From: Aurantiacibacter luteus
GTDB taxonomy: Bacteria > Pseudomonadota > Alphaproteobacteria > Sphingomonadales > Sphingomonadaceae
Direction: 5' to 3'
Assembly (NCBI RefSeq): GCF_001010945.1
Contig: NZ_LBHB01000002.1
Span: forward strand, 806,001 to 870,000
DNA: 64,000 nucleotides
Program-made: the position numbers and the translations under genes
In this document: one piece after another, positions 1 to 29,360 of the stretch
How the letters are laid out: each line of letters starts with the position of its first letter
Numbering within the stretch: position 1 is the first letter of the stretch
The notes under the pieces: model-generated
What the model was told of the DNA's origin: nothing
The model's input: the letters and a program-made list of their open reading frames with translations, nothing else
The model's database searches: none

Positions 1-1083
1 ATGCCCGGCTTCCAGTCGCTCGAGGTGGTCGCGGCCATTCGCTACGACAGCTATTCCGATGCCGGCGACACCACGAACCCGCAGTTCGGCATCAACTGGG
101 AGCCGATCGACCGGCTGACCCTGCGCGGTTCCTACGGCACTTCCTTCCGCGCGCCGACGATCCCGGAGATCTACGGCAACTCCAACAACCTGTTCGTGCA
201 GAACTACCAGAACCCGGCAGGCGGCGCGCCGCTGGTGGGTGTTGCGCTATCGGGCCCCAACCTCGACCTCGGGCCGGAAACCGCCGAGACCTGGTCGGTC
301 GGTTTCGACTACGAGCCGATCGACGATCTCAACCTGTCGCTGACCTACTTCGACGTCTCCTACGACAACCAGGTGAGCGCCAACCTGTCGAACCTGACGA
401 TCCTCGGGCAGGAGAGTCAGTTCGCTGGCACCGGCGTTATTCTGCGCGGCGCGGCGGCGCGGGCGGAGATCCAGCGGCAGATCGATGCCGGCGTGGGCGT
501 GCTCGGCGCTTTCCCCGGCGGCAGCCTTGCGAACATCGACGTGTTCGTGGACGGCCGTTCGCGAAACCTCGGCAAGTCGATTACCCGCGGCTTCGATGCG
601 CTCATCAACTACCGCATGGATCTGGGTGCCAACGATGTCGTGCGTCTCAGCGCTTCGGGAACCTACCTCACCGATTACCAGGTGGCGGTGGCTCCGCAAG
701 CGGACCTGCTCGACCAGCTCAACATCATCTTCCAGCCGCTGAAGTTCAAGGCGCGCTTCGCCGTCAATTGGGACCACGGCCCCTTCACCAGCCGCCTCTC
801 GGCGACCCACGTTGGCGGATACACCAACACTCTCGTCACGCCCAACCAGGAAGTCGACAGCTATACGCCGGTCGACTTCAGCATCACGTACCGCATCGGC
901 GAGGCTTTCGGCTTCGACCGGCTGAGCGGGCTGGAGTTGACCGGCGAGGTGCGCAACATGTTCGACGAGGACCCGCCCTACGTGAACCTTGCCCCGAGCG
1001 GAAACGGCAGCGGCGGCTACGATGCCACCGCGGCCAACCCCGTGGGCCGGTTCTTCGCCGTGGGAGCGCGCGTCCGCTTCTAG
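1..1083 (+). CDS. TonB-dependent receptor, C-terminal barrel (5' end outside window)
   Basis: The frame is open from the first base, so this is the 3' part of a gene that starts outside the window. The 360 visible residues read as the beta-barrel of a TonB-dependent outer-membrane receptor. Strands alternate polar and aromatic residues, an element LRGSYGTSFRAPTIPEIY lies near residues 41-58 (a common barrel signature), and the chain ends in Arg-Phe as expected for outer-membrane insertion. The plug, TonB box and signal peptide are not visible. It lies 19 nt before the CapA/TRAP cluster on the same strand, so it may carry that cluster's substrate across the outer membrane. That link is inferred from position only. 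Confidence 0.9.
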   Translation: MPGFQSLEVVAAIRYDSYSDAGDTTNPQFGINWEPIDRLTLRGSYGTSFRAPTIPEIYGNSNNLFVQNYQNPAGGAPLVGVALSGPNLDLGPETAETWSVGFDYEPIDDLNLSLTYFDVSYDNQVSANLSNLTILGQESQFAGTGVILRGAAARAEIQRQIDAGVGVLGAFPGGSLANIDVFVDGRSRNLGKSITRGFDALINYRMDLGANDVVRLSASGTYLTDYQVAVAPQADLLDQLNIIFQPLKFKARFAVNWDHGPFTSRLSATHVGGYTNTLVTPNQEVDSYTPVDFSITYRIGEAFGFDRLSGLELTGEVRNMFDEDPPYVNLAPSGNGSGGYDATAANPVGRFFAVGARVRF

Positions 1084-1102: not shown

Positions 1103-2215
1103 ATGATGATAGACGATGTCCAGATAGCCGTGCTCGGCGACCTCGTGCTCGATGAGCCCGATGCCGACCACTGGCTGTCCGGCATCGCGCCCGCGATCCG
1201 CGCTGCCGATCTCGCCATCGCCCATCTGGAGGTGCCGCACACGACCTCGGCGCACGAGATGGTGGGCGACGTGCCGGCACGCGGCGCGCCGCCGGAGAAT
1301 ATCGCCGCAATCGCCCGCGCGGGCATCGGGATGGTCAGCCTCGCCGGCAACCACATCGCCGACTGCGGGGCCGAGGGTATCGCCGAGACCCGTGCGCTAC
1401 TCGACGCCGCAGGCGTGGCCCATGCCGGGGCGGGAGCCGATCTCGCACAGGCACGCAAGCCCGCCTTCGCCGATGTCGGCGGGCGGCGGATCGCGCTCCT
1501 CAGCTACAACTGCGTCGGGCCCGAAGCAGCCTGGGCCGGGCCGGGCAGGGCGGGGTGCGCCTATCTCAGAATGATCGCTGCCGATGGCGCGGCAGTGTCT
1601 CCCAAGGCCTGTCTCGAGAGCGTCCACCCGGAAGCTCTCGAGACTCTTTTGGAAGATGTGAACGCGGCACGCGGGGCTGCGGACTTGGTGCTGGTGGCCT
1701 TGCACAAGGGGCAGGTGCATACCCCCGCCATGCTGCAACCCTACGAGCGCGACATTGCCCGCGCCGCCATCGACGCGGGCGCAGACGCCGTCCTGTCGCA
1801 TCACGCGCACATCGTTCGCGGGATCGAGTTCCATCGCGGCAAGCCGATCTTCCACGGCCTCGGCAACGGCTGCGTGGTGACCTCCGCGCTCTCGCCGCAG
1901 CAGGACCATCCGGCCCGCCGCGAATGGGCCGAGCAGCGCCAGCGCATGTTCGGCTTCACGCCGGACCCGGCCTATACCCTCGCGCCGTTTCACCCCGAGG
2001 CGGTCAATGCCTTCATCGGCCTGCTCACCCTGCGCGCCGACGGCCGTATCGAGGCCGCCATCGTGCCGGTGGACGTCGAGCCGCCGGGCCGCCCGGTGCT
2101 GGCTTCGGGCGAGCGGGCGCGGGCCATCGCCGAATATCTCGAACGCATTACCCTTGCCGCCGGTCTGCCGGCCATCGAGGTTGGCGAAGACTTCACCGTC
2201 AGGGCCGCGGCATGA
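1103..2215 (+). CDS. CapA-family metallophosphoesterase-like protein
   Basis: This 370-residue protein has the PGA_cap (CapA) fold pattern. An N-terminal GDLVLDEP metal-site strand is followed by HLEVPHT, GNHIADCG (about residue 83), LHKGQVHT, SHHAHIVRGIE and FHGLGNG, the Asp/His/Asn motifs of the calcineurin-like superfamily. CapA relatives are best known from poly-gamma-glutamate systems, but no ligase partners (CapB/CapC) are nearby, so its substrate here is unknown. No signal peptide is evident, which suggests a cytoplasmic role. The start at 1103 (ATG ATG) was chosen because homology begins there; the frame is open further upstream into the receptor gene. It overlaps the next gene by ATGA and so belongs to the TRAP operon. 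Confidence 0.85.
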   Translation: MMIDDVQIAVLGDLVLDEPDADHWLSGIAPAIRAADLAIAHLEVPHTTSAHEMVGDVPARGAPPENIAAIARAGIGMVSLAGNHIADCGAEGIAETRALLDAAGVAHAGAGADLAQARKPAFADVGGRRIALLSYNCVGPEAAWAGPGRAGCAYLRMIAADGAAVSPKACLESVHPEALETLLEDVNAARGAADLVLVALHKGQVHTPAMLQPYERDIARAAIDAGADAVLSHHAHIVRGIEFHRGKPIFHGLGNGCVVTSALSPQQDHPARREWAEQRQRMFGFTPDPAYTLAPFHPEAVNAFIGLLTLRADGRIEAAIVPVDVEPPGRPVLASGERARAIAEYLERITLAAGLPAIEVGEDFTVRAAA

Positions 2216-2682
2216 GCACGGCGAAGACCCTCGTCATCTGGATCGGCGGGCTGGCGCTGCTGGCGGCGACGCTGGTCGATACGTTCGCCGTCATCGGGCG
2301 GCATGTCGGGCTGCCGCTCCACGGTTCGATCGAGCTGATGCAGGCCATCGTCCTCGTCTCCGGATCGGTCGGGCTGGTCGTGGCGACCTGGGACCTTTCG
2401 CACGCCCGCGTCCGCATCGTGGTGGAGCGCCTCTCGCCGCCCGCGCGCCGAGTGGCGGACCTGTTCTCCGACCTGCTGACGCTGGCTTTCGTGCTGGCCC
2501 TGCTGGCGGGCTCGGTATGGATCATGGCGGACCTGTGGGACGGCTACGAGCAGAGCGAGCTGGTCGGCGTCCCCTGGCTCGCGCTGCGCCTTATCGCCAA
2601 CGTCTGCCTGCTCGCCTGCGCGGTCCTGCTGGCGCTGCGTCTGTTACGGCGAAACGAGCGCGAAGGCGGGGGCGGAGCATGA
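2212..2682 (+). CDS. dctQ: TRAP transporter small permease (DctQ-type)
   Basis: The 156-residue protein has four hydrophobic segments (about residues 8-24, 43-60, 87-107 and 122-142), which is the DctQ topology. Length is typical. DctQ is the small inner-membrane subunit of tripartite ATP-independent periplasmic transporters, which import organic acids using a sodium or proton gradient. The start ATG at 2212 overlaps the CapA stop (ATGA) and the stop overlaps the DctM start, so the genes are translationally coupled. The matching binding protein is encoded four genes downstream at 8216. The split arrangement is unusual, but all three TRAP parts are present. Confidence 0.88.
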   Translation: MSTAKTLVIWIGGLALLAATLVDTFAVIGRHVGLPLHGSIELMQAIVLVSGSVGLVVATWDLSHARVRIVVERLSPPARRVADLFSDLLTLAFVLALLAGSVWIMADLWDGYEQSELVGVPWLALRLIANVCLLACAVLLALRLLRRNEREGGGGA

Positions 2683-3989
2683 TCTACTCGACCGCCGCCA
2701 CCGGAGCCGTGGGCATCCTGATACTGTTCGCCCTGCTGCTGGCGGGCGGGCGCATCGGCGCGGTGCTGGGCGCTGTCGGCGTGGGCGGTCTTGCCGTGGT
2801 GCTGGGGCCGGAGGCCGCGCTCATCAAGGCGGGCGTCGTCGTGATCGACACGCTGACCCGCTACGAGCTCGGCACGCTGCCGCTGTTCCTGTTCATGGCG
2901 CACATCTTCTTCTCGATCGACGCCAGCCGCGACCTGTTCGACGCCGCGGCCAAGTTTCTCGGCCACCGCAAGGGCGGCCTCGCCTACGCCTCCATCGCCG
3001 GATGCGGCGGCTTCGGCGCGATCAACGGCTCCAGCCTCGCCACGACCGCCACCGTCGGCCTCGTCGCCTATCCCGAGATGAAACGCCGCGGCTACGACGA
3101 CCGGCTGGCGACCGGCACCATCGCCGCCGGCGGCACGCTCGGGCAGATGATTCCGCCCTCGGGCGCGCTGATCGTCTTCGGCATCATCGCCGAGACCAGC
3201 ATCGGCACGCTGTTCACCGCCGCCATCATTCCCGGCATCACGCAGGCGCTGTTCTACGCCGCGGTCGTCTTCATCCTCGTGCGGATGCGGCCCGGCCTCG
3301 CCACGACCGGCGAGCGGGCGGACTGGGGCGAGCGGCTGGCCTCGCTGAGGCGCATCTGGGAAATCCTCGTCATCGTCGCGCTGGTGATCGGCGGCATCGC
3401 CATGGGCTGGATCAGTCCGGCCGAGGCCGCCGCCGTGGGCGCGGCGGGCGCACTGGTGACTGCCATGATCCGCCGCAAGCTGACCCGCGCGGCGCTGTTC
3501 AACGCCTTTCACGAGACGCTGCGGACCACCGGCCTCATCTACCTGATCCTGATCGGCGCGCTGATCTTCTCGGTCTTCATCGGCGTGACCGGCCTCGCCA
3601 GCGCGGCGGGCGAGCTCGTCAGCGGGCTGGGGCTGGGGCAGGTGGCGACGCTGATCCTGATCGCGCTGCTGCTGCTGCTGCTCGGCTCGGTGCTGGACGG
3701 GCTGGCGCTGATGCTGCTGATGACGCCGATCCTCCTCCCCATCGTCGAGAGCACCGGCCTCACCGCGATCTGGTTCGGCATCTTCATCACTCGCGCGATG
3801 GAGATCGGCTTCGTCCACCCGCCGCTGGGGATGAACCTCTACATCATGCAGGGCGTGGCCAAGGACGTGTCGATCTCGACCATCTTCAGGGGCGTCCTGC
3901 CCTTTCTCGCCAGCGATTTCGTGCACCTGCTGATGATCATCCTGTTCCCCGCCGTGGTGCTGTGGCTGCCCGGAGTGCTCGGCACATGA
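2679..3989 (+). CDS. dctM: TRAP transporter large permease (DctM-type)
   Basis: The 436-residue, very hydrophobic protein has about twelve membrane segments, the size and topology of DctM. Family features include the conserved GGCGGFGAINGSSLATTATVG-like stretch (near residues 107-127), the IPPSGALIVFG loop and EIGFVHPPLGMNLYI near the C-terminus. It forms the transport channel with DctQ and accepts substrate from the DctP lipoprotein encoded at 8216. TRAP systems carry carboxylates such as C4-dicarboxylates, 2-oxo acids and aromatic acids; the sequence does not say which. The start at 2679 overlaps the dctQ stop by 4 nt, and the stop overlaps the next gene by 4 nt. Confidence 0.93.
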   Translation: MIYSTAATGAVGILILFALLLAGGRIGAVLGAVGVGGLAVVLGPEAALIKAGVVVIDTLTRYELGTLPLFLFMAHIFFSIDASRDLFDAAAKFLGHRKGGLAYASIAGCGGFGAINGSSLATTATVGLVAYPEMKRRGYDDRLATGTIAAGGTLGQMIPPSGALIVFGIIAETSIGTLFTAAIIPGITQALFYAAVVFILVRMRPGLATTGERADWGERLASLRRIWEILVIVALVIGGIAMGWISPAEAAAVGAAGALVTAMIRRKLTRAALFNAFHETLRTTGLIYLILIGALIFSVFIGVTGLASAAGELVSGLGLGQVATLILIALLLLLLGSVLDGLALMLLMTPILLPIVESTGLTAIWFGIFITRAMEIGFVHPPLGMNLYIMQGVAKDVSISTIFRGVLPFLASDFVHLLMIILFPAVVLWLPGVLGT

Positions 3990-4849
3990 CGCAGATAGCC
4001 ACCGCCGGCCCGTGCCTGCCGCACCAGCTGCTGCGCGCCGCCGGATGCCACGCCGGGCCGCTTGCCTTCGATCACGACCGCACGCCCACGCGGGCCGAGG
4101 CGTTCATGGAGAGCAAGTTCATGCCCTGGGCGCCGCTGGTGCTCGATCACTGGCTTGCGGGCGACTACGATCACCTAGACGCCGTGCTCTTCAGCCGCGC
4201 CGACGATACCTCGCAGCGGCTGTTCTATTACCTGAGCGAGTTGCGGCGAACGGGCCGCGCGGGCGGGCCGGAACCCCTGATCTTTGACGTGGCCAAGATA
4301 CCGCGCCCGACGAGCGCCGCGCGCACCGAGACGAAGCTGCGCGAGCTGGCCGAACGGCTGAACGTAACGGCTGCGGCGCTGAATGACGCGCTCACACCTG
4401 CCGAAACTTCCATCCCGGCCAACGACCCTGTCTGTCTCGTCACCGGCACCCCCGCGCCGGACGACCGACTGAACGACGCCATCCGCAATGCTGGGTTTGC
4501 GCCTGTCGCCGAGACGCTTGCGCAACAATGGAGCGAGGATGCGCCCTGCGAGCCGGCCGACGACCCGTTCGCCGCGCTCGCTACCGCGCTCCATGCGCTC
4601 GATTCCGGACCGCGTGCCTTTGCCGATCCCGCCGCTCGCATGGCGCGCCGCATCGCCGAGACGCAGGCGCAGGCCGTCGTCGTCTGGCGCATCGAGGAGG
4701 ACGAGGCGCAGACCTGGCAGCTGCCCGCCGAACGCCGTGCGCTGGAGTTGTCGGGCGTTCCGCATCTCGTCCTTACCCGGCGCGACTGGTTCGGGCGCGA
4801 TGGTGCGGCGGACGAAATTACCGCATTGCTGAAAGGACTTGCCCGATGA
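3986..4849 (+). CDS. 2-hydroxyacyl-CoA dehydratase-like subunit lacking the usual cluster cysteines
   Basis: The 287-residue protein resembles the D-component subunits of 2-hydroxyacyl-CoA dehydratases and benzoyl-CoA reductases (HgdB/HadC/BcrB type) in layout. LPHQLLRAAGCHAGPL matches the usual 'P-E-L-l-y-A-a-G' opening. ESKFMPWAPLVLDHWLAGDY sits where family members have 'CPFaRs', and DHLDAVLFSRADDTSQRLFY where they have 'D-g-v-v-f-s-x-x-C-D-s-x-Q-R'. Both positions that normally carry [4Fe-4S] cysteines are replaced (Met-Pro-Trp; Ala-Asp-Asp). The assignment rests on remembered family motifs, not an alignment. Overlaps of 4 nt with dctM and the CoA-transferase place it in the operon, with a cysteine-bearing partner at 6930. 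It may be a structural or binding subunit. Confidence 0.65.
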   Translation: MTQIATAGPCLPHQLLRAAGCHAGPLAFDHDRTPTRAEAFMESKFMPWAPLVLDHWLAGDYDHLDAVLFSRADDTSQRLFYYLSELRRTGRAGGPEPLIFDVAKIPRPTSAARTETKLRELAERLNVTAAALNDALTPAETSIPANDPVCLVTGTPAPDDRLNDAIRNAGFAPVAETLAQQWSEDAPCEPADDPFAALATALHALDSGPRAFADPAARMARRIAETQAQAVVVWRIEEDEAQTWQLPAERRALELSGVPHLVLTRRDWFGRDGAADEITALLKGLAR

Positions 4850-6933
4850 TGCCGCTCGCCGGACACAGCGTGGCCGCGCTCGGCACGATGGCGGAGCGCC
4901 CGCTTGCGCGCTACCTCGCCTCGCTCGGGGCGGAGATCGGCGGCGAGGTGGCGGGGGCGAGCTTCGTCATCGACGACCTCGGCCTCGCGGCGACGAAGGA
5001 CCTCGGCATACCCGCGAGCGCCGTCCACGTTTCCGTCACCACATTCGGTTCGGGCGGACCCCGTGAGAACTGGCGCGGGGGCGAGCTGGTCGCCTCGGCC
5101 ATGGGCGGTGCGCTGCGCCTGACGGGCGAGCCGGGGCAGAAGCCGGTCAAGGAAGCGGGCGATGCCTGCATCTTCCACGCCGACATGGTCGCCGCCGCCG
5201 GCGCCATGGCCGCCCACTATGCGCGCGGCTCGCACGGAGAGGGCCAGCACGTCGACGTGTCCGTCCAGCAGGTCGCCATGAGCCGAAACACCAACGGCGT
5301 CCTGGTCTGGCAGTTCGACCGCCGCAAGCTGGACCGGGCAGGCGGCTGCATCGCCTATGGCCGCGCCAAGGTGCAGGTCATCTGGCGGCTGGCCGACGGC
5401 TGGTGTTTCCACGCGCTGATGACCGGACGGCTCGGCGCGCCCGCCAATCGCGCGCTGTCGCAGTGGATGGACGAGGCGGGCTTCGACAATCCCATGCGCG
5501 AGGTCGACTGGCTGGCCTACAACCGCTCCACGCTCGATCCGGCGGTCCGCGCGACATGGGAGTCGGCCATGGCGGCCTTCTTCGCCAGTCGCACCAAGGC
5601 GCAGATCGCCGGCGAGGGACGCGAGCGCGGCATCAACGCCTGCGTGGTCAACGAGCCCGCCGACGTTTTGGCCGACCCGCATCTCGCCGCGCGCGGATTT
5701 CTCGATACGCCGAGCGGGCTCCCCGAGCGCTTCGCCGCCATTCGCCCCGGTCCTGCCGCCGCTGCCGCGCCCGCCGTCCACAACGGCGAGCGGCCCGGTC
5801 CGCTGTCCGGCGTGAAGGTACTCGATTTCGCCTGGGCGCTGGTCGGCTCGATCACCACCAAGACGCTGGGCGACATGGGGGCCGAGGTGGTCAAGATCGA
5901 GAGCCGCGCGCGCCCCGATCTCTCGCGGCTCGACGTGCAGGTCTCGGCCTCAAGCGCCGACAGCCTCGACGACAAGCCGTGGTTCGCACACCTCAACTCG
6001 TCCAAGCGCTCGCTGACCATCGACCTCAAGGCTCCGCAGGCGCGCGAGGTGATTAACCCGCTGATCGATTGGGCGGACGTCGTGGTTGAGAATTTCTCGC
6101 CCGGGACCATGGCCAAGCTCGGGCTCGGATATGATGACCTCGCCGCGCGCCGACCCGACATCGTCATGGTCTCGGGCAGCGTGTTCGGCCAGACCGGCCC
6201 GCTGGCGCAGGAGTGGGGCGTGGACGGCACCGGCGGGGCGCTGTCGGGGCGCACCTACCTCACCGGCTACCGCGACGGCGATCCGGTCATCCCCGGCGCG
6301 GTGCCCTACGGCGATGTCATCGTGCCCTACGTCATGGCGGGCCACGTTGCCGCCGCGCTGCAGTATCGGCGCGAGAGCGGGCGGGGCTGCCACATCGATG
6401 CCAGTATGTACGAAATCTGCGTGCAGCAGATGCGGCCCGCGCTGGCCGCCGCTCTCGCGGGAGAGCAGCCGCAGCGCATGGGCAATGCCGACCCGGCGGT
6501 GTTCTTCCAGGACGTGTTTCCCGCCGCAGGGCAAGATCGCTGGGTCGCCATCAGCGTCTTTTCCGCCGACGAGAAACGCCGCCTTCTCGCCATCACTGGC
6601 GAGGACATTGCCGCCTGGACCCGCACTCGCGAGGACCACGCCATCGCCGCTGAACTGCAGGCTGCCGGCCTTGCCGCGGGCGCGTTGCAGGATGTCGAGG
6701 ACCTGATGGAGCGCGACCCGCAGATCGCCGGGCGCGAGGCGCTCGTCACGCTAGATCATCCGCTGCTTGGCCCTTTCGGCCACATCGCCACGCCCATCGC
6801 CTTTTCGCGCGATGGCATGGTGCCTTACCGCGCGCCCGGCATGGGCGAACACACGCGCGCGGTGGCGACCGGCATCGCGGGGCTGCCCGAAGATCGCTTC
6901 GAAGACCTGCTCGAACAGGGAATTTTCCGATGA
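4846..6933 (+). CDS. Two-domain CaiB/BaiF (class III) CoA-transferase fusion
   Basis: At 695 residues this is nearly twice the usual 380-430 of the family. The C-terminal unit (from about residue 319) is complete: LSGVKVLDFAWALVG, GDMGAEVVKIES, the VVENFSPGTMAKLGLGYDDL signature and GCHIDASM with the probable catalytic Asp518. The N-terminal unit (residues 1 to about 300) has its own GEGQHVDVSV element with Asp137 but a shortened start without the 'VVENF' block. Family enzymes move CoA between acids through aspartyl-CoA thioester intermediates. Position between two dehydratase-type subunits suggests it activates a hydroxy acid. Start 4846 overlaps the upstream stop; ATG 4849 is an alternative. 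Confidence 0.88.
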   Translation: MMPLAGHSVAALGTMAERPLARYLASLGAEIGGEVAGASFVIDDLGLAATKDLGIPASAVHVSVTTFGSGGPRENWRGGELVASAMGGALRLTGEPGQKPVKEAGDACIFHADMVAAAGAMAAHYARGSHGEGQHVDVSVQQVAMSRNTNGVLVWQFDRRKLDRAGGCIAYGRAKVQVIWRLADGWCFHALMTGRLGAPANRALSQWMDEAGFDNPMREVDWLAYNRSTLDPAVRATWESAMAAFFASRTKAQIAGEGRERGINACVVNEPADVLADPHLAARGFLDTPSGLPERFAAIRPGPAAAAAPAVHNGERPGPLSGVKVLDFAWALVGSITTKTLGDMGAEVVKIESRARPDLSRLDVQVSASSADSLDDKPWFAHLNSSKRSLTIDLKAPQAREVINPLIDWADVVVENFSPGTMAKLGLGYDDLAARRPDIVMVSGSVFGQTGPLAQEWGVDGTGGALSGRTYLTGYRDGDPVIPGAVPYGDVIVPYVMAGHVAAALQYRRESGRGCHIDASMYEICVQQMRPALAAALAGEQPQRMGNADPAVFFQDVFPAAGQDRWVAISVFSADEKRRLLAITGEDIAAWTRTREDHAIAAELQAAGLAAGALQDVEDLMERDPQIAGREALVTLDHPLLGPFGHIATPIAFSRDGMVPYRAPGMGEHTRAVATGIAGLPEDRFEDLLEQGIFR

Positions 6934-8219
6934 ACGCCTCGGCCAACCAGCGCAGCCGCAAGACGCTCGCCTGCACGCAGGCGGCGACGGATTATCAAAA
7001 GGCGTTCGGCAAGGAACTGCGTCGCCGCGTGGTGGAGGACCGCGAGCCCTATGCCATCGTCCAGGCCGACACCCCGCACGAGCTGTTCCACGCGATGGAC
7101 ATACCGATCATCACCAACCAGTGGTGGTCCGCCTACATCTCGGCCAAGCAGCTGTCCTCGCGCTACTTCGATGCCATGGTGGCCAAGGGCTATCCGGCCA
7201 ACAGCTGCAAGTACTGCTCGCTTGGCCTCGCCTGCACACTGGCGAACGAGCCGGAGACCGCGCCCTGGGGCGGGCTGCCCACGCCAACGGTCATGGTCGC
7301 GCGGCTCACTTGCGACTGCATCCAGCACGTCTTCGGCCAGTGGTCGGAGGCGATGGGCAGCGAGTTCTTTCCCATGGAAGCGCCCGCCTGGACCGATGCC
7401 GATCCCGACTGGTTCGCGCACTCGCGCTCCGACTGGGAGCGGGTCTACCAGCCCGACCGCATCGCCCACATGGTGGACGAGATGCGCGACCTGATCGCGC
7501 TGCTTGAAAACCGCACTGGCCGCCGTTTCGACGAGGGCAGGTTCCATCACCTGATGGAGCAGATCAACGTGCAGGAAGGCCACATCTGGGAAGCCGCGCA
7601 GGCCATCGGCGCCGCTCGTCCGTGCCCGGTCTCCATCGCCGAGCAGATGCCCAACACCATGATCCCGCAATGGCACCGCGGGTCGGACTGGGCGGTCGCC
7701 CACGCCAAGGCCTTCCGCGACGAGGTGCTGGACCTGGTGGCGCGCGGCCACGGTGCCTCCAGCAACGAGCGGCGGCGGCTGATGTGGATCGGCGCGGGCG
7801 TGTGGCACGATCCTGGCTTCTACCAGGCATTGGAGGAGAAGATGGGCGCGGTCTTCGTGTGGTCGATGTACATGCCCTTCGCCGGCCCGGCCTACATCCG
7901 CGACCTCAAGGGCAAGCCGATGGAGGCGCTCGCCAGCCGCATCGCCAGCATGAACGAGACGCTGCACCTGCCGCCATGGATGAACGGCTGGATGGTCAGC
8001 GAGGCGCAGCGCTGCGGGATCGATGCCGCGGTGATGCTGCTGCCCCCCGACAACCGCCTCAGCCAGTCCGGCAACAAGCTGACCGCCGCGGCCCTGCGCG
8101 AAGCGGGCGTGCCGGTGCTGATGATCGATGCCGACATGGTGGATGCCAAGGTCTGGGACCATGACCGCATGGTCGGCATGGTCGAGGACTTTCTGCTGGC
8201 CGAGGGAGCGGCGGCATGA
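6930..8219 (+). CDS. 2-hydroxyacyl-CoA dehydratase / benzoyl-CoA reductase-type subunit
   Basis: The 429-residue protein fits the HgdA/HadB/BcrC superfamily. It has a cysteine group NSCKYCSLGLACTL (Cys93, 96, 102), LTCDCIQ (Cys128, 130) and a C-terminal half running from RRRLMWIGAG through RCGIDAAVML (Cys362) to VPVLMIDADMVD and the closing RMVGMVEDFL helix. The family uses one-electron chemistry on a cysteine-bound [4Fe-4S] cluster and needs an ATP-dependent activator, which is not visible here. The usual third cysteine after 'D-G-V-I' seems replaced (PPDNRLSQS). Start ATG 6930 overlaps the transferase stop, and its own stop overlaps dctP. Such enzymes are normally oxygen-sensitive, which is odd in an apparently aerobic genome. 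Confidence 0.82.
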   Translation: MNASANQRSRKTLACTQAATDYQKAFGKELRRRVVEDREPYAIVQADTPHELFHAMDIPIITNQWWSAYISAKQLSSRYFDAMVAKGYPANSCKYCSLGLACTLANEPETAPWGGLPTPTVMVARLTCDCIQHVFGQWSEAMGSEFFPMEAPAWTDADPDWFAHSRSDWERVYQPDRIAHMVDEMRDLIALLENRTGRRFDEGRFHHLMEQINVQEGHIWEAAQAIGAARPCPVSIAEQMPNTMIPQWHRGSDWAVAHAKAFRDEVLDLVARGHGASSNERRRLMWIGAGVWHDPGFYQALEEKMGAVFVWSMYMPFAGPAYIRDLKGKPMEALASRIASMNETLHLPPWMNGWMVSEAQRCGIDAAVMLLPPDNRLSQSGNKLTAAALREAGVPVLMIDADMVDAKVWDHDRMVGMVEDFLLAEGAAA

Positions 8220-9247
8220 GGCTGCTCGCATCGCTCCTGCTGGCGCTGATGCTGCTGGGCTGCGCGCGCGAGGTGCCGCCCGGTGTCACCGAGCTGACCT
8301 ACGCGACGCCCTATCCGCCCTCGCATCCATTCAGCAAGGCCGACCAGCGGTGGATGGACTGGATCGAGGCGGAGAGCGGCGGCTCGCTCGTCATCCGCCC
8401 GGTTTGGTCGGGCGCGCTGCTTTCGGCTGACATGTCGATGGAGGAACTGCGCCACGGCGTCGCCGACATCGGCCTCATCACCCCCATCTACGTGCGCGGC
8501 GGCACCCACCTGCTGCGCATCCAGACCGGCTTCTACAGCGGCGCGGACAGCGTCGCATCGCAGGTCGCCCTCTACCGCTGCATGGAGCGGGACGTGCCGC
8601 AGATCTCGCGCGAGCTGAGCGGGCTGAAGATTCTCGCCGTGCAGGGCGGCCTGTTGCCCGGCGTGCTGACCCGTAGGCGCGCGGTGAACAGCCTCGATGA
8701 CCTGCGCGGCATGCGCATCCGCGCTCCGACCGAGCTGCTGCCGGTGCTGCGCGAACTGGGCGCGGACCCGGTCAACATGCCCATGGGCGAAGTCTACTCG
8801 GCGCTCGCCAAGGGCGTGATCGACGGCGTGATCGCCCCGCCGGATACCTTTCGCGCGCTGCACTTCACCGAGGTCGCGACCAACTATTTCGAGCTGAAGG
8901 TGCCGCGCGGCGCCTATCCGGCCCGCGCCATGGGCGCAGCCCGCTGGAATGCGCTGAGCGATGCCGAGCGCGCGCTGCTCGAACGGAGCAGCCGCGTGTG
9001 GGAGCAGGCGCTGACCGAGGAGATCGTCGCATCCGAGCAGGTCGGGCGCGACGCGGGCGAGGGCGTGGTGCGCTACACGCAGCCCAGCGCGGCGGACCAG
9101 CAAGCCTTCGACGACCTGTACCTGCGCATCGGCCGCGCCAACGCGGGCGAGCTCTCGCGCTTCGGCATCGACGGGGAGGCCGCCTACCGAGTCGCCCGGG
9201 CCAGCGTGCGCGGACGCGACCAGATCATGTGTGGAGAGAGGAATTGA
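8216..9247 (+). CDS. dctP: TRAP transporter substrate-binding lipoprotein (DctP-type)
   Basis: The 343-residue protein starts with a short lipoprotein signal (lipobox LLGC, Cys16), so it is probably anchored in the periplasmic face rather than freely soluble. The body is a DctP fold: YATPYPPSHPFSKADQRW near the mature N-terminus, a VRPVWSGALLSADM-like strand, LRGMRIRAPTELL, the MPMGEVYSALAKGVIDGV core motif (about residues 197-214) and VARWN-type elements near residue 240. It should capture the substrate for DctQM encoded at 2212-3989. Separation from the permease genes by three CoA-enzyme genes suggests the transported acid is their substrate. Both ends overlap neighbours by 4 nt. Confidence 0.9.
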   Translation: MRLLASLLLALMLLGCAREVPPGVTELTYATPYPPSHPFSKADQRWMDWIEAESGGSLVIRPVWSGALLSADMSMEELRHGVADIGLITPIYVRGGTHLLRIQTGFYSGADSVASQVALYRCMERDVPQISRELSGLKILAVQGGLLPGVLTRRRAVNSLDDLRGMRIRAPTELLPVLRELGADPVNMPMGEVYSALAKGVIDGVIAPPDTFRALHFTEVATNYFELKVPRGAYPARAMGAARWNALSDAERALLERSSRVWEQALTEEIVASEQVGRDAGEGVVRYTQPSAADQQAFDDLYLRIGRANAGELSRFGIDGEAAYRVARASVRGRDQIMCGERN

Positions 9248-10398
9248 ACCAGCCGCTCGCCGGAATTCGCGTGGCCGATTTCAGCCATGTCATGGCCGGG
9301 CCCTTCGCCAGCCACTTGCTTCGCCTGATGGGTGCGGAGGTCATCAAGATCGAATCCGTCAAGGGCGACCAGTTCCGCAACTACGGCAGCAACCGCGAGA
9401 TGCGCGGCATGTCCCCCGCCTTCATCGCCGCCAACGTGGGCAAGAAGAGCATCGCGCTCGACCTGAAGGACGAGGGCGACCGCGACATTGCCCGCCGCAT
9501 CGTGGCGAAGAGCGACGTCCTGCTGGAAAACTTCCGCCCCGGCACCATCGGCAGGCTCGGCTTCGGCTACGAGGCAGTGCGGGCGGACAATCCCGGCCTC
9601 GTCTACTGCTCGATCTCTGGTTACGGGCAGGACAGCCCGCAGCGCGACTGGCCGGCCATCGACAACATCGTGCAGGCAACCAGCGGCATGATGATGCTGT
9701 CGGGCGCGGAGGGCGATCCGCCGATCCGCATCGGCTTCCCCATCGTCGATACCCTGACCGGCCAGACGGCGGCCACCGCCATCCTCGGCGCGCTGATCCA
9801 GCGGTTCCGCACGGGCGAGGGCGCCTACATCGACGTGTCCATGCTCGATGCGACGCTCTCGTTCATGACCTCGGCGCTGACGCCGTTCCTTTCCACCGGC
9901 AACACACTGCGAAGGCTCGGCAACACCGGCTATTCGGAGCTGCCGACCGCGGGTGTGTTCCGCACGCGGGACGGGCGGTTCGTCTCGCTCGGCGTGGTGC
10001 AGGACAACCAGTTCGATGCGCTCGCCCGGCTGCTGGGGCGCGAGGCGTGGCTCACCGATCCGCGCTTCGCCGATGCCGACGCGCGGCGCGGGGCCTTCGA
10101 CGCGCTGTTCGGCGAGTTGGAGGCGATCATGCTCACGCGCGAGGGAGCCGAGTGGGAGCGTGTGCTGAGCGAGGCCGGCATTCCCTGCGGCCTCGTGCGC
10201 GGCGTGGACGAGGCGGCCTCGCTCTGCCGCGAGGGCAGCCTGCTGCGCTTCGCCGTGCCGACAAACGGATCGCAAACCGATGTCGCCGTGCCCAATGCCG
10301 GCTTCGCCATGACCCCCGGCGGTCCGGGCACCGAAGAGCCGCCGCCCACGCTCGACCAGCACCGCGAGGAGATACTGCAATGGCTCGCCGAGGCATGA
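9244..10398 (+). CDS. CaiB/BaiF (class III) CoA-transferase
   Basis: This is a single-domain, 384-residue family member with every common block. LAGIRVADFSHVMAGPFASH opens it, followed by MGAEVIKIES, LLENFRPGTIGRLGFGYEAV, ISGYGQDSPQRDWPAIDNI and GEGAYIDVSMLDA, where Asp197 is the likely acyl carrier residue. It transfers CoA between carboxylic acids. The chosen start is TTG 9244, which overlaps the dctP stop as TTGA and has a GGAG ribosome-binding site 7 nt upstream; GTG 9229 is a weaker alternative. With the fused enzyme at 4846 it gives the operon two separate transferases, perhaps for two substrates or for two steps of one path. Confidence 0.93.
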   Translation: MNQPLAGIRVADFSHVMAGPFASHLLRLMGAEVIKIESVKGDQFRNYGSNREMRGMSPAFIAANVGKKSIALDLKDEGDRDIARRIVAKSDVLLENFRPGTIGRLGFGYEAVRADNPGLVYCSISGYGQDSPQRDWPAIDNIVQATSGMMMLSGAEGDPPIRIGFPIVDTLTGQTAATAILGALIQRFRTGEGAYIDVSMLDATLSFMTSALTPFLSTGNTLRRLGNTGYSELPTAGVFRTRDGRFVSLGVVQDNQFDALARLLGREAWLTDPRFADADARRGAFDALFGELEAIMLTREGAEWERVLSEAGIPCGLVRGVDEAASLCREGSLLRFAVPTNGSQTDVAVPNAGFAMTPGGPGTEEPPPTLDQHREEILQWLAEA

Positions 10399-12107
10399 GC
10401 GCGCGATCATTGGCGAAGCTGCTGACGGCACTTGCGGCATTGCTGTGCGCCCCCGCCGTGGCCCTCGCGCAGCCCTATCCGGATTACGCGCGGGAATCGC
10501 TTTACGTGCCCGTGCGCGACGGCACGCGACTGGCGGTGAACATCTATCGTCCGGCAACCGGCGGGCAGGTGGCGACGGAGCGACTGCCGGTCATCTTCGT
10601 CTTTACCCCCTACCGCGCCCGCATCCGCAACGCAGAGGGCGAAGTCGTGGAGACGGCGCTGAACGACAATCTCGGCCTGCGCTCGCTGCTGCGGGCGGGC
10701 TATGTCGTCGCGGTGGCGGACATTCGTGGCAAGGGCGCCAGCTTCGGCGCACGGCGAGGGTTCCAGGACCGGACCGAGGCGATGGACGGGCACGACCTCG
10801 TCCAGTGGCTTGCCGCGCGCGACTATTCGACGGGCGATGTCGGCATGGTCGGATGCAGCTATCTCGGCGGCACCACCATGCACACCGCCAGCACGGCCCC
10901 GCCGGCACTGCGGGCGATCTTCACCGGGGCGAGCGACTGGGACAAGTACGCCTTCGTGCGCCGCGGCGGCATCACCGCGCAATTCAACACCCGGCCCGAC
11001 GAGCCGCTGAGCGACGACCTCGCCAGCCTGCCGGTCGATGCCGATCCCGACGGCGCGCTGCTGCGTGAGGCCGTGGCGCAGCATGCCGACAACACCTCGA
11101 TGGCGGGGCTGTGGTACGGAATGCCCTACCGCGACAGCGTCTCCCCGCTGACGGGCAATGCCTTCTGGGACGAGGTGGCAATCTGGCGGTATGCCGACAC
11201 CATCCGCGAAGCCGGCATCGCCACCTACATGTGGGGCAACTGGAACGACGAGCCGACCAGCGACGTCATCCTCGCTGCCGAGAACCTGGGCAGCCGTCTG
11301 CTGGTCGGCCCCGGCAGCCACTGCGAGACACCGCGCGACTTTGCTTTCACGCAGGAGATCGTGCGCTACTTCGACCATGAGCTGAAGGGCCTGGACAATG
11401 GCTTCGCCGAGCAGCCGCGCGTGACCTACTGGTCGGACGAGACGGGCGATGCCGGCCACTATGTACGCGGCGGGGAATGGCCCGGTGCGCGCTCGCAGAC
11501 GGCGGCCTGGTATCTGGGCGACGGATCGCTGGCTGCACGCCCGCCCGAGGCGGGGGCGCGGACCTTTGCCGTCGACTACGACGTGGCGAACGATGCCTAT
11601 TTCGCATTCTGGCCCAGTCCGCTCGACGAACACGGCCTCGTCTACGACGGCGCGCCGCTGGCCGAGCCGATGGACCTGCTGGGCTTCCCCACCGCGCACG
11701 TCACCATCGCCGCAGACCGACCTGACGTCGATGTCTTCGTTTATCTCGAAGCGGTCGATGCAGGGGGCACGGCGGAGGTCGTCTCCTTCGGACGGCTCAA
11801 GGCCTCGCAGCGCGCCCTCAGCGCCGCGCCTTGGGACAATCTCGGCCTGCCCTGGCATTCGGGGCGCGAGGCGGACGCCGCGCCGATCCCTGCCGGACAG
11901 AGCGCGACGCTCATCGTGCCCATGCTGGCGACATCGTACCACGTGCCCGCAGGCTCGCGCTTGCGGTTCGTGGTGACCGGCGCCGACCCGCGCCAGCGCA
12001 ACCTCGCCGATCTCAGGCAGGATCCCGCGCCGCGCATCACGGTGACGCACGGCTGGGCCTACGGCTCGCGGATCGAATTGCCGCTGAATGTGACAGGAGA
12101 CGAATGA
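10395..12107 (+). CDS. Secreted CocE/NonD-family hydrolase
   Basis: The 570-residue protein begins with a Sec-type signal peptide (hydrophobic core, cleavage after ALA near residue 25). It continues as an X-Pro dipeptidyl-peptidase/CocE-type alpha/beta hydrolase. VRDGTRLAVNIYRP is the family opening, TPYR follows, the nucleophile elbow GCSYLGG places Ser155, and WNDEPTSD and GPGSHCE fit the Asp and His regions. The C-terminal part (about 340-570) is the jelly-roll domain with WYLGDGSL and the closing ITVTHGWAYGSR. Relatives cleave esters, beta-lactams or N-terminal dipeptides. Here it probably releases an acid in the periplasm for the TRAP system. It overlaps both neighbours by ATGA. Confidence 0.88.
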   Translation: MSARSLAKLLTALAALLCAPAVALAQPYPDYARESLYVPVRDGTRLAVNIYRPATGGQVATERLPVIFVFTPYRARIRNAEGEVVETALNDNLGLRSLLRAGYVVAVADIRGKGASFGARRGFQDRTEAMDGHDLVQWLAARDYSTGDVGMVGCSYLGGTTMHTASTAPPALRAIFTGASDWDKYAFVRRGGITAQFNTRPDEPLSDDLASLPVDADPDGALLREAVAQHADNTSMAGLWYGMPYRDSVSPLTGNAFWDEVAIWRYADTIREAGIATYMWGNWNDEPTSDVILAAENLGSRLLVGPGSHCETPRDFAFTQEIVRYFDHELKGLDNGFAEQPRVTYWSDETGDAGHYVRGGEWPGARSQTAAWYLGDGSLAARPPEAGARTFAVDYDVANDAYFAFWPSPLDEHGLVYDGAPLAEPMDLLGFPTAHVTIAADRPDVDVFVYLEAVDAGGTAEVVSFGRLKASQRALSAAPWDNLGLPWHSGREADAAPIPAGQSATLIVPMLATSYHVPAGSRLRFVVTGADPRQRNLADLRQDPAPRITVTHGWAYGSRIELPLNVTGDE

Positions 12108-13060
12108 TGCGGCTCATCCTGCCCCTTGCCATGGCGGCAATGATGTTTGCGCCTGCAAGTGCCCAGCAGGCTCCCGATCCCGCCGAGATGCGTCGTCAGA
12201 TGGAGGCGCGCAATGCCATACCCGATACCGCCGGCGACGGACCCTATCCCGCGGTGATCGAGGAATATGCCAGCCTGCCGGACCACGTGGTCTATCACCC
12301 GGCGGAGCTCGCGCCGCCCTTCGGCGGGAGCATGCCGGTGGTAGTCTGGGGCAACGGCGGCTGCGCGGACGACGGCAGCTCGGCGCGCCTCCACCTCGCG
12401 CAGATTGCCAGCTACGGCTACCTCGTCATCGCGCCCGGCCCTCGCCGGAGCGGCCCCGGTGCCACCCACGGCCCCGCGCCGGAGCGTCCGCGCCCGGCCG
12501 AGGGCCTGCCGCCGCCCGCCACCAGCGTCGCCGACGTGATGGCCGGCATCGACTGGGCGATCGCGCAGGATGCCGATCCGGCCAGCCCCTTCTACGGGCG
12601 CGTGGCGACGGGCAGGCTGGCAGTCGCCGGCCACAGCTGCGGCGGGCTCCAGGCTATTCAGGCGGCGGCCGACCCGCGCATCGACACCGTGCTCATTCAT
12701 AACAGCGGGATCTACAATTCGGAAGCCAGCCCGATCCAGTCGATGACCGTGTCAAAGGCCATGCTGCGCGGGTTCCACCAGCCGGTGCTCTACGTGATGG
12801 GCGGTCCGAACGACATCGCCCACCCGAATGGTCTCGACGACTATGCGCGCGTCGATCACGTGCCGATCATGCTGGCAGACCTGCCGGTCGGACACGGCGG
12901 CACCTTCTTCGAACCCTACGGCGGCGCTGCGGCGCAGGTGGCGGTGGACTGGCTGGAATGGCAGCTGCGCGGCGATGCAGTCGCGGGCCGCACGTTCACG
13001 GGCGAAAACTGCCGCTTGTGCAGCGGCTCGCAATGGACGCTCAGCCGCAAGGGTTGGTAG
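12104..13060 (+). CDS. Secreted alpha/beta hydrolase (esterase-like)
   Basis: The 318-residue protein has a signal peptide (cleavage near PASAQQ, residue 20-21) and an alpha/beta-hydrolase core. VVVWGNGGCADDG is a probable oxyanion strand, GYLVIAPGPR follows, and the nucleophile elbow AGHSCGG has Ser178. GGPNDIAHPNG and DLPVGHGGTF supply likely Asp and His. The style resembles poorly characterised feruloyl- or acetyl-esterase-like enzymes, but substrate cannot be read from sequence. Start 12104 overlaps the preceding stop by ATGA; ATG 12107 is equally possible. It is the last gene of the overlapping chain that starts at 1103, followed by a 44-nt gap. Confidence 0.85.
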   Translation: MMRLILPLAMAAMMFAPASAQQAPDPAEMRRQMEARNAIPDTAGDGPYPAVIEEYASLPDHVVYHPAELAPPFGGSMPVVVWGNGGCADDGSSARLHLAQIASYGYLVIAPGPRRSGPGATHGPAPERPRPAEGLPPPATSVADVMAGIDWAIAQDADPASPFYGRVATGRLAVAGHSCGGLQAIQAAADPRIDTVLIHNSGIYNSEASPIQSMTVSKAMLRGFHQPVLYVMGGPNDIAHPNGLDDYARVDHVPIMLADLPVGHGGTFFEPYGGAAAQVAVDWLEWQLRGDAVAGRTFTGENCRLCSGSQWTLSRKGW

Positions 13061-13104: not shown

Positions 13105-14508
13105 ATGCAGCAGTTTCAGCGCAAGAACCCGGTGACCGGCGACGTCGCCTCGTCCGCCCACGCGATGAAGGCCAGCGACGTGCCTACGGTAGCCGAGAAG
13201 GCGCAGGCCGGGTTCTCCGAGTGGTCGCAGATGGGCCCCAACGCGAGGCGCGCGGTGCTTATGAAGGCGGCGGACGCGCTGATGGCTAAGAAAGACGAGT
13301 TCGTCGCCGCCATGATGGGCGAGATTGGCGCCACCGCGGGCTGGGCCATGTTCAACCTCGGCCTTGCGGCAGGGATGGTGCGCGAGGCGGCGGCGTTGAC
13401 CACGCAGATTTCCGGCGAGGTCATTCCTTCCGACCATCACGGCACCATCGCCATGGCCCTGCGCGAGCCGGTGGGCGTGCTGCTGGGCATCGCGCCGTGG
13501 AACGCGCCGATCATCCTCGGCGTGCGCGCCATCGCCGTGCCGCTCGCCTGCGGCAACGCGGTGATCCTGAAGGCCAGCGAGCAGTGCCCGCGCACCCACG
13601 CGCTGATTATCGAGGCGTTCGCCGAGGCGGGCTTTCCGGAAGGCACCGTCAACATCGTCACCAACGCGCCCGAGGACGCGGGCGAGGTGGTCGGCGCGCT
13701 GATCGATGCGCCGCAGGTTCGCCGCATCAACTTCACCGGCTCGACCGCGGTGGGCAAGATCATCGCGAAACGCGCCGCCGAGCATTTGAAGCCCGTGCTG
13801 CTGGAGCTGGGCGGCAAGGCGCCGATGATCGTGCTGGAAGACGCCGACCTCGACGAAGCGGTCAAGGCTGCGGCCTTCGGCGCCTACATGAACCAGGGCC
13901 AGATCTGCATGTCGACCGAGCGCATCATCGTGGTCGAGAGCGTAGCCGACGAATTTGCGCGCAAGTTTGCGGAAAAGGTGAAGACCATGCCCGCCGGCGA
14001 TCCCACCGCGGGCAACACGCCGCTGGGCGCCGTGGTCGACCGCAAGACCGTGGATCACTGCCTCGAACTGGTCGAGGACGCCGTCAGCCAGGGGGCGGAG
14101 CTGCTGGTGGGCGGGGAAACCTCGATGAATGTCGTCATGCCCGCGCACCTCGTCGACAAGGTGACGCCCGGGATGCGCCTGTTCCGCGACGAGAGCTTCG
14201 GCCCGGTCGTCGGCATCGCCCGCGCGCGCGACGAGGCGCACGCCATCGAGCTCGCCAACGATACCGAGTACGGCCTCTCCTCCGCCGTCTTCACACGCGA
14301 TACCGCACGCGGGCTGAGGGTGGCGCGGCAGATCCAGGCCGGCATCTGCCACGTCAACGCCAGCACGGTCAGCGACGAGCCGCAAATGCCGTTCGGCGGC
14401 ATGAAGGCCAGCGGCTACGGTCGGTTCGGCGGCAAGGCCGGGATCGATGCCTTTACCGAGCTGCGCTGGATCACGATCGAGACCGAGCCGGGGCATTATC
14501 CGATCTGA
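13105..14508 (+). CDS. Aldehyde dehydrogenase, vanillin/salicylaldehyde dehydrogenase-like
   Basis: The 467-residue NAD(P)-dependent aldehyde dehydrogenase has all catalytic parts: APWNAPIIL (Asn133), LKASEQCPRTH, FTGSTAVGK, LELGGKAP with Glu234, and GQICMSTER with nucleophile Cys268. The GQICMSTERIIV form and length recall vanillin, salicylaldehyde and 4-hydroxybenzaldehyde dehydrogenases. It oxidises an aldehyde, probably aromatic, to the acid. The context supports that, since the next gene, overlapping by one base, is 4-hydroxybenzoate hydroxylase. ATG 13105 has a GAGAGGA ribosome-binding site 7 nt upstream. Confidence 0.88.
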   Translation: MQQFQRKNPVTGDVASSAHAMKASDVPTVAEKAQAGFSEWSQMGPNARRAVLMKAADALMAKKDEFVAAMMGEIGATAGWAMFNLGLAAGMVREAAALTTQISGEVIPSDHHGTIAMALREPVGVLLGIAPWNAPIILGVRAIAVPLACGNAVILKASEQCPRTHALIIEAFAEAGFPEGTVNIVTNAPEDAGEVVGALIDAPQVRRINFTGSTAVGKIIAKRAAEHLKPVLLELGGKAPMIVLEDADLDEAVKAAAFGAYMNQGQICMSTERIIVVESVADEFARKFAEKVKTMPAGDPTAGNTPLGAVVDRKTVDHCLELVEDAVSQGAELLVGGETSMNVVMPAHLVDKVTPGMRLFRDESFGPVVGIARARDEAHAIELANDTEYGLSSAVFTRDTARGLRVARQIQAGICHVNASTVSDEPQMPFGGMKASGYGRFGGKAGIDAFTELRWITIETEPGHYPI

Positions 14509-15677: not shown

Positions 15678-15758
15678 TGGATACCGAAAGCCAGGGTTAA
15701 CGCATAAGCAAGCACGCGCGGGTAGACCCGCAGGCTTCGCAACAAGAGCATCGTACGC

Positions 15759-24027: not shown

Positions 24028-24980
24028 CGCGCGTGCTGGCGCGGCTTCTCGCCGGTCTCGGCGCGCTGCTTCTGGCGGCCTGTGCCAGCGTGCAACCCGC
24101 GCCGACGAACAAGCGCATCGCTCTCACCTTCGACGACGTGCCGCGCGGGGCGGGGGCTTTCCTGCCGGTGGAGGAGCGCGCCGCCATGTTGCGCCGCGAG
24201 CTGCGCCGGGCGGGGGTCAGCCAAGCGGCGTTCTTCGTCAATCCGGGCCACTATGCCGAGCATCCCGAACGCATCGCCGACCTGATTGCCTACGCGGCGG
24301 AAGGGCACGCGGTGGCGAACCATTCGAATACCCACCCGGCCCTCACGGATCTTCGCGCCGAGGACTACCTGCTGGACATCGACCGGGCCGAACGATGGCT
24401 CGTCCAGATACCCAACCACCGCGCATGGTTCCGCTATCCCTATCTCAACGAAGGGCGCAGCGACCTCGCCAAGCGCGATGCCGTGCGCGCGGGGCTTGCC
24501 GAGCGGGACCTCGCCAACGGCTATGTCACTGTGGACGCCAGCGACTGGTTCTACGAAGGCGCGGCCGTGGCAGCGCGCGATGCCGGGAAGACCATCGACC
24601 GCGAGGCGCTGCGCGATCTCTACGTCGAGAGCCACGTCGAGGCCGCCGAGTTCTACGACCGGCTGGCGCGCGAGGCCACGGGCCGCTCGCCCGCCCACGT
24701 CATGCTGCTGCACGAAACCGACCTCGCCGCGCTGTGGATCGGCGACCTGGTGGCGGCCCTGCGCGCGGCGGGCTGGACGATCGTCTCCGCCGACGAGGCC
24801 TACGCCGACCCCATCGCGCCGCTCGCCGCGACTTACGAGACACCCTCCGCGCAAGGCACGCTGACCGAGCAGGTCGCCTGGCAGCGTGGCTTGCCCGCCC
24901 CGCGCTGGTATGCGCGCAACAACACCGATCTGGCGCAGGCCGAGTTCGACCGCCGCGTACTGCACCTGTCCGATGATTGA
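24024..24980 (+). CDS. Polysaccharide deacetylase-family lipoprotein
   Basis: The 318-residue protein starts with a lipoprotein signal (LLLAAC, Cys20) and has the NodB-type deacetylase fold. TFDDVP at 35-40 carries the catalytic base Asp37 and metal Asp38, and NHSNTH carries His100 and His104. RYPYLNEG and MLLHETD come further on. It should remove N- or O-acetyl groups from a glycan in the periplasm. Its 4-nt overlap with mmsA is odd for function. A possible partner is the polysaccharide operon 4 kb upstream, since poly-N-acetylglucosamine systems need a deacetylase; this is inference. Confidence 0.85.
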
Positions 24981-25027
24981 CCCCGCCCGCCCCGCTGTGC
25001 CACGCGCCACGAGGTAAAGGAGCACGA

Positions 25028-26560: not shown

Positions 26561-26568
26561 CGTGACGC

Positions 26569-29358: not shown

Positions 29359-29360
29359 CC

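Follow-up and report, generated by a model that had tools for sequence, protein, structure and literature searches.

Enzymes of the HGD-D superfamily stand for textbook chemistry of anaerobes, in which an ATP-driven electron is delivered at an oxygen-sensitive cluster. The class I benzoyl-coenzyme A (CoA) reductase BzdNO is one example of such delivery and, according to its description (PMC11971306), its BzdN subunit carries an [8Fe-9S] cluster on C36, C73, C100, C263, C293 and C327, and its BzdO subunit a [4Fe-4S]-OH2 cluster on C95, C128 and C380. In the HadABC and FldABC systems (HadBC, PDB 3o3m/3o3n), an alpha/beta HGD-D pair stands beside class III CoA-transferases. Here, we describe a gene run in a stretch of 64,000 nucleotides from Aurantiacibacter luteus (NCBI RefSeq assembly GCF_001010945.1, contig NZ_LBHB01000002.1, positions 806,001 to 870,000 of the forward strand; the whole stretch is referred to as the window), in which an HGD-D pair of equal fold, HGD1 and HGD2, likewise accompanies such transferases. 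Activase, beta-cluster ligands, third alpha ligand and the counterpart of HadB Glu55 are, however, absent or replaced, the bacterium is apparently an aerobe, and the run also holds import genes of the TonB and tripartite ATP-independent periplasmic (TRAP) types, a two-domain CaiB transferase and a CapA protein. The reading that we favour, by a modest degree of belief, is that HGD1 and HGD2 make up an oxygen-tolerant acyl-CoA enzyme that works without activator-driven ketyl chemistry. The customary iron-sulphur (Fe-S) sites and the activator powered by ATP are missing in part or altogether, and this points to a new chemistry on an old scaffold.

Results

Fold and subunit type

A preliminary description of the run had supposed that its two dehydratase-type proteins are related to HGD-D (Pfam PF06050, gathering score 28.4), and both match that profile, HGD2 with 161.5 bits and HGD1 with 35 bits (E values in Table 1). 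The weak match of HGD1 is genuine, since the HGD-D profile picks up 36 of 43 HGD1 sequences at E<=0.01, the best of them at 1.7e-24. Moreover, structure comparison with AlphaFold models finds the fold of solved HGD-D members in both proteins; HGD2 is alpha-like and HGD1 beta-like, with the same alpha/beta pairing as in HadBC and BzdNO. In six genomes, the two are merged in one open reading frame (ORF) of about 715-800 amino acids (three of these show an HGD-D match in each half, and the other three were judged by eye), so that a 1:1 heterodimer of HGD1 and HGD2 is likely.

The top sequence-profile matches of HGD2 are to class I benzoyl-CoA reductases (BzdNO/MbdON, PDB 8s02 and 9g87), namely MbdO at 9.4e-21 and BzdO at 6.1e-16, and the best Z for HGD1 is given by BzdN, tied with MbdN and HadC. 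HGD2 scores below the curated benzoyl-CoA reductase models (bzdO, 41.3 versus 448.6 bits; benz_CoA_red_B, 19.4 versus 486.55), and the double-cubane cluster protein model NF040772 gave 19.6 bits versus a cut-off of 350. The double-cubane cluster proteins (DCCP; PDB 6eno, 7yyl and 7yzm) are homodimers with an ATP-dependent reductase partner, whereas we find a likely heterodimer without such a partner. Finally, in a tree of a chosen subset, which left out one fused sequence (L037), the family stands apart from classical HGD-D proteins (100/100), and equal support is given to the fused clade and to the pair L128 and L144, the branching order between them being open.

Cluster-ligand positions

HGD1 columns were read in 86 rows, i.e. 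78 distinct sequences, against three classical beta subunits from two genomes of the window's family (G088 and G152); the classical proteins of the corresponding loci, L040 and L041, served as references and fused proteins were excluded. Five columns hold Cys in all three classical subunits. No HGD1 sequence has Cys at residues 46, 75 or 239, and the fifth column is gapped throughout; column 155 is taken up in the Discussion. What is more, residue 239 is acidic in all 78 sequences (Asp in 61, Glu in 17). The same picture emerges in relation to BzdN: the columns aligned to C36, C73, C100 and C327 hold no Cys (C100 being placed via the classical subunits), the C293 region is deleted or Gly, and the C263 position can be read from a single alignment only, which means that the six-Cys [8Fe-9S] site is not found in HGD1. 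By these alignments, HGD1 has lost the beta-cluster cysteines. As a separate observation, HGD1 residue 84 (window 4235-4237) is Cys in 43 of 44 and 55 of 60 rows of two alignments and Ser in the window protein.

For HGD2, 97 rows, i.e. 89 distinct sequences, were read. MbdO and HadB have cysteines opposite C93 and C128, and N375 takes the place of the third ligand; in the classical L040 protein, all three positions are Cys. Relative to the BzdO ligands, HGD2 thus has Cys at two of three alpha positions only. The third position holds Asn in 68 of the 89, a gap in 8 and Cys in a single sequence (L142). HadB Glu55 aligns with Gln64, which is Gln in 88 of 89. Two further cysteines, C96 and C130, are also conserved, and the quartet C93/C96/C128/C130 is either complete (80 of 89) or wholly absent (9 of 89), never partial, which argues that the four residues would build one metal site. 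The nine proteins that are free of it are the six fused ones and those of L128, L144 and L148. Thirty-two HGD2 residues are invariant in all sequences, the Cys-free ones included (e.g. N63, W65, K73, W248, R250, G251, W292, F309, S312, M313 and Y314), from which it follows that the protein stays under selection after the loss of the cysteines. Judging by their alignment position, these residues probably line the cleft. In the locus with the three-Cys HGD2 (L142:8165-11606), CapA lies immediately downstream, and this relative resembles an intermediate state.

Activase and lifestyle

The preliminary description had seen no activator gene, and this now holds for the whole genome, which is given as 100% complete and has no match to the activase profiles PF01869 and TIGR00241. 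All 19 cassette genomes from the window's family lack TIGR00241, as do 32 of the 36 cassette genomes tested overall; 13 of these 36 had been included for a prior PF01869 match, so that the sample leans towards finding an activase. Among the relatives from a wider contig search, the PF01869 search covered 50 loci (49 genomes), picked for spread from the best 80 of the 310 relatives confirmed there. Three control genomes (G088, G152 and G892), each having classical HGD-D proteins with a nearby activase, match TIGR00241. In addition, a true activase used as tblastn query (a42) had no match at E<=1 in any of 104 cassette loci, some of them repeats of one genome, and matched the control loci L040 and L041; 13 of all 106 loci are shorter than 12 kilobases (kb). 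Note that one genus of the window's family does have classical two-subunit HGD-D systems with a nearby activase, at L040 (G088) 3843-6279 and 13258-16652 and at L041 (G152) 4273-7683, and that these two genomes are the only ones among 298 with such distant HGD2 relatives.

That the source bacterium is apparently an aerobe, as had been proposed, is supported by two COX1 matches in its genome and by a profile search there that gave no match to the anaerobic ribonucleotide reductase NrdD. The relatives that carry the cassette are for the most part known to be aerobes as well.

The gene run and its conservation

The seven genes between 2212 and 10398 of the window (DctQ, DctM, HGD1, the fused CaiB, HGD2, DctP and the single-domain CaiB) form the overlapping chain that the preliminary description had listed, all on the + strand, as ORF coordinates in the whole-window reading and Pfam matches bear out. 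Its phrase that the module is fused to a TRAP importer is right for the gene run and wrong for any protein. The run is in fact longer, with CapA overlapping on the upstream side and CocE and an esterase-like protein on the downstream side (Table 1). From the coordinates, every adjacent pair from CapA to the esterase-like gene overlaps by 4 base pairs, nine overlaps in succession; the run is presumably a single transcript. The TonB-dependent receptor ahead of the run is cut by the window edge; its complete form is a 912-amino-acid ORF in the upstream DNA (L146:12346-15084) with Plug and TonB_dep_Rec_b-barrel domains.

Table 1. Features of the gene run, with positions in the window and supporting matches.
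Feature	Position	Strand	Evidence
TonB-dependent receptor, C-terminal part; gene starts before the window	1..1083	+	related receptor in 14 close loci
CapA/PGA_cap protein	1106..2215	+	PF09587 2e-54; signal peptide not seen by eye
DctQ, TRAP small permease	2212..2682	+	PF04290 3.9e-15
DctM, TRAP large permease	2679..3989	+	PF06808 4.1e-91; TIGR00786 above cut-off
HGD1, HGD-D beta-type subunit (HadC/BzdN fold), without beta-cluster cysteines	3986..4849	+	HGD-D 1.6e-08
HGD1 Asp239, acidic residue at a classical ligand Cys column	4700..4702	+	column count, 78 distinct HGD1
CaiBf, fused two-domain CaiB/BaiF class III CoA-transferase	4846..6933	+	PF02515 7.2e-108 (CoA_transf_3, three stretches)
HGD2, HGD-D alpha-type subunit (HadB/BzdO/MbdO fold)	6930..8219	+	HGD-D 5.2e-47
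HGD2 C93 (aligned to classical alpha-cluster Cys) and C96 (extra Cys)	7206..7217	+	alignments, column counts
HGD2 C128 (aligned to classical alpha-cluster Cys) and C130 (extra Cys)	7311..7319	+	alignments, column counts
HGD2 N375, at the place of the third alpha-cluster cysteine	8052..8054	+	alignments to MbdO, BzdO and HadB
DctP, TRAP solute-binding protein, lipoprotein-like signal (by eye)	8216..9247	+	PF03480 2e-26; TRAP_S1 above cut-off
CaiB, single-domain class III CoA-transferase, TTG start assumed, motif Asp D197	9244..10398	+	PF02515 3.6e-108
CocE/NonD-type S15 hydrolase, signal peptide (by eye)	10395..12107	+	PF02129 2.8e-39; PF08530 5.3e-29; TIGR00976 above cut-off
Exported hydrolase-like protein, labelled esterase-like or DLH by eye, signal peptide by eye	12104..13060	+	

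HGD2 relatives occur in 21 of 298 genomes of the window's bacterial family, its own included: 14 at 77-87% identity, four at 39-43%, and the two distant, classical ones (G088 and G152) at about 22%. The 14 close loci (L022-L035) share the order TonB receptor-CapA-DctQ-DctM-HGD1-CaiBf-HGD2-DctP-CaiB-(CocE)-(esterase), with some changes: L029 carries CapA at the opposite end of the run, L030 and L034 have the esterase placed between DctP and CaiB, several loci have CocE ahead of the receptor, and L031 has neither CaiBf nor CapA. A longer view is given by 49 long-flank loci of at least 20 kb, taken from the best 80 relatives and scored by tblastn with non-overlapping gene assignment. All six core genes (CapA, DctM, HGD1, CaiBf, DctP and CaiB) are present in 42 of these 49, and the counts per gene are 45 for the TonB receptor, 46 for CapA, 47 for DctQ, 49 for DctM, 48 for HGD1, 46 for CaiBf, 46 for DctP, 47 for CaiB, 43 for CocE and 36 for the esterase. 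The gene order is conserved in relatives and, both dehydratase-type proteins matching HGD-D, neither of the two outcomes that the preliminary description had named as speaking against its view was observed.

The best 80 of the 310 relatives belong to Sphingomonadales, Caulobacterales, Hyphomonadaceae, Parvularcula, Steroidobacter and Aquamicrobium, and also include metagenome-assembled genomes (MAGs) of Myxococcota, Bacteroidota and Acidobacteriota; within these 80, the cassette is a conserved import-activation-conversion set mainly of Sphingomonadales, Caulobacterales and Steroidobacter relatives. In the Bacteroidota MAG loci L126 and L129, it takes the form of a compact run of CaiB, esterase, CapA, HGD2 and HGD1, and the scanned locus L126 has a transporter of the major facilitator superfamily (MFS) and two further esterase-type genes. 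In drawn samples the HGD2 family is rare at E<=1e-10 (7 of 385 class-sample and 6 of 398 phylum-sample genomes, where the source genome, a congener and genomes with weakly matching classical proteins are counted in). The same gene set lies on a Novosphingobium plasmid, whose record annotates HGD2 as '2-hydroxyacyl-CoA dehydratase family protein' and HGD1 as 'hypothetical protein'. A MAG titled Klebsiella pneumoniae (L087) also holds the cassette; in the tree, its HGD2, at 75%, falls among those of other MAGs from Proteobacteria, and the record is probably misnamed.

CoA-transferases and CapA

In the PDB, the fused CaiB matches the benzylsuccinate CoA-transferase BbsEF (9fn0) best; chain B aligns to its C half, and chain A has its best stretch on the N half. 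Unlike BbsEF, the protein is one fused chain with the motif Asp kept in both halves: the Asp of the (V/I)D-x-S motif (D137 and D518) is retained in at least 97% of 75 sequences. In the single-domain CaiB, whose PDB match is the formyl-CoA transferase 10uh (3e-63), D197 is likewise kept in at least 97% of 66 sequences. We take the motif Asp of the CaiB proteins to be the catalytic one.

The closest solved relative of CapA, within the CapA/PGA_cap family, is the metal-dependent lasso-peptide epimerase MslH (PDB 8gqb/8gq9, about 6e-26); in the NCBIfam model epimerase_MslH (NF038314), CapA reaches 3.8e-31 and 107.9 bits, far under the cut-off of 700. MslH is described in PMC10406935 as a one-metal epimerase that shifts the alpha proton of a C-terminal Trp. 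The residues conserved in 54 CapA sequences, i.e. Asp12, Glu42, Asn82, His83, Asp86, His200 and His235, lie at or near MslH Asp11, Glu44, Asn87, His88, Asp91, His259 and His295, respectively, where the pairing of Asp12 with Asp11 was made by eye outside the printed alignment. Consequently, seven of the eight key residues of MslH (two His/Asp dyads and the one-metal site) have a conserved counterpart, and the eighth, His261, aligns to Gly202. Lasso-peptide genes were not noticed, although no search was aimed at them.

Neighbouring genes

The esterase-like protein at the end of the run has no Pfam match at E<=1e-5 and no NCBIfam match. It is followed by genes for an aldehyde dehydrogenase and a PobA-like FAD (flavin adenine dinucleotide) hydroxylase (window 13105-15677), an order also seen in G103 and rare elsewhere. 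Further on, at 24977-31394, carboxyltransferase, methylmalonyl-CoA mutase and biotin carboxylase genes resemble a propionyl-CoA pathway. Near the cassette, an exported pair recurs (e.g. L024:2434-4787), consisting of a CxxCH di-heme peroxidase-like protein, found in 24 of 100 loci, and an OmpA-like protein (by eye), found in 17 of 100; the Bacteroidota copy of this pair has a weak MbnH-family match only.

Discussion

The preliminary description saw in this run a Had/Fld-like module, and the parts of that view that stand are the HGD-D alpha/beta pair, its company of CaiB transferases and a TRAP importer in a conserved run, and the lack of an activator. The required ligands and the activase are missing, and since activase, third alpha ligand and beta-cluster ligands all fail, the cassette is not to be filed as a Had/Fld system; by its sequences, it belongs to the HGD-D superfamily and may still act on a hydroxyacyl-CoA. 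Two alternatives had been offered, an unrecognised aerobic variant of the known path and a CoA-binding system with new chemistry. The second fits better, and the first worse, because the residues of the known path are missing, namely the beta ligands of HGD1, the third ligand and the Glu55 counterpart of HGD2, and, in 9 of 89 relatives, all four cysteines.

How could such a system work? The gene run would be catabolic, for an imported organic acid, which is probably derived from an ester. In the scheme that we propose, the TonB receptor would take up the compound, the exported CocE- and esterase-type hydrolases would cleave it and release the acid from the ester, and the TRAP importer would carry the acid into the cell, where the CaiB transferases would load CoA onto it and later remove it. 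CapA may act on the substrate as a metal-dependent epimerase of its alpha carbon and so set that stereocentre first. The HGD1-HGD2 heterodimer would then convert the acyl-CoA, presumably in the catabolic direction, in an oxygen-tolerant manner and without an activator-driven, ATP-dependent ketyl-radical step. The type of reaction may be an elimination, an isomerisation or a lyase reaction; because of the partners and the fold, elimination (dehydration) is our first guess, and the others would fit equally.

One can take this argument further, and here we are tentative, holding it possible and short of probable that a whole branch of HGD-D in aerobes has moved off Fe-S radical chemistry. Its cleft would then run an ATP-independent, oxygen-stable acyl-CoA reaction, and the four cysteines would be a zinc or structural site that was lost in some lineages, including the one with fused subunits.

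That said, several observations weigh against an oxygen-tolerant enzyme without ketyl chemistry. In particular, two classical ligand positions and two new cysteines are kept in 80 of 89 HGD2 sequences, so that an Fe-S cluster may persist and be redox-active, and one HGD2 (L142, from G359) has Cys at all three alpha-ligand columns. In HGD1, column 155 holds Cys in 1 of 78 distinct sequences, and column 169, a Cys in two of the three classical subunits, in 6 of 78; in HGD2, the residue at the Glu55 position is Thr in 1 of 89 (L148). Four cassette MAGs carry an activase elsewhere (G324, G331, G342 and G344), and the fused CaiB is absent from L031, L076, L080 and L125. Moreover, the ligand mapping depends on alignments of low identity (12-24%), the AlphaFold models are without cofactor, and the Cys-free branches may have changed function.

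One alternative is an aerobic Had/Fld-type 2-hydroxyacyl-CoA dehydratase, in which C93, C128 and another Cys close by would hold a [4Fe-4S] cluster in HGD2, and a general electron donor of the cell, instead of a BadF-type activase, would start the ketyl chemistry. The two cysteines do align to classical ones and are retained in 80 of 89 distinct HGD2, L142 even retains the third, a CaiB transferase with an alpha/beta pair is the HadABC set, and an MslH-like epimerase would suit an (R)-specific dehydratase. However, HGD1 is without beta-cluster ligands for an electron relay, the third HGD2 ligand is missing in 88 of 89 and Gln stands for HadB Glu55, the activase is absent in 32 of 36 genomes, and the nine relatives without all four cysteines keep the same invariant residues. 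We consider this alternative rather unlikely.

The all-or-none behaviour of the CxxC...CxC quartet can also be read differently, i.e. as that of a structural zinc site on C93, C96, C128 and C130 in a pair that is no carbon-skeleton catalyst, but a CoA-ester-binding partner of CaiB (a carrier, a thioesterase or a transferase subunit). A CaiB-type gene, single or fused, is indeed present in 49 of 49 long-flank loci, and some branches have shed all cluster ligands and yet keep the proteins; we regard this as quite unlikely all the same. Finally, that the pair is the ordinary annotated dehydratase of a facultative anaerobe, as the public record's name for HGD2 would have it, with an activator that was merely missed, is very improbable, given a genome stated to be complete, two profiles that find no activase in it and do find one in the controls G088 and G152 of the same family, the missing ligands, and the presence of COX1 with NrdD not found.

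Limited literature searches, whose result lists were incompletely covered, returned no description of this cassette, and its absence from print is not thereby established. What makes the case of interest is that a bacterium which has cytochrome oxidases conserves this pair, and that 32 invariant residues and the transferase partners have been kept where the activase and ligands have been lost. Since some relatives keep all three alpha-ligand cysteines, others two and others none, the cluster dependence of the chemistry becomes testable, and biocatalysis, too, would gain from an acyl-CoA dehydratase or isomerase that is stable to oxygen. If a non-radical aerobic branch of HGD-D does exist, it would provide the family with a second, non-radical route to a HadBC-like reaction, or with a new reaction on the same scaffold.

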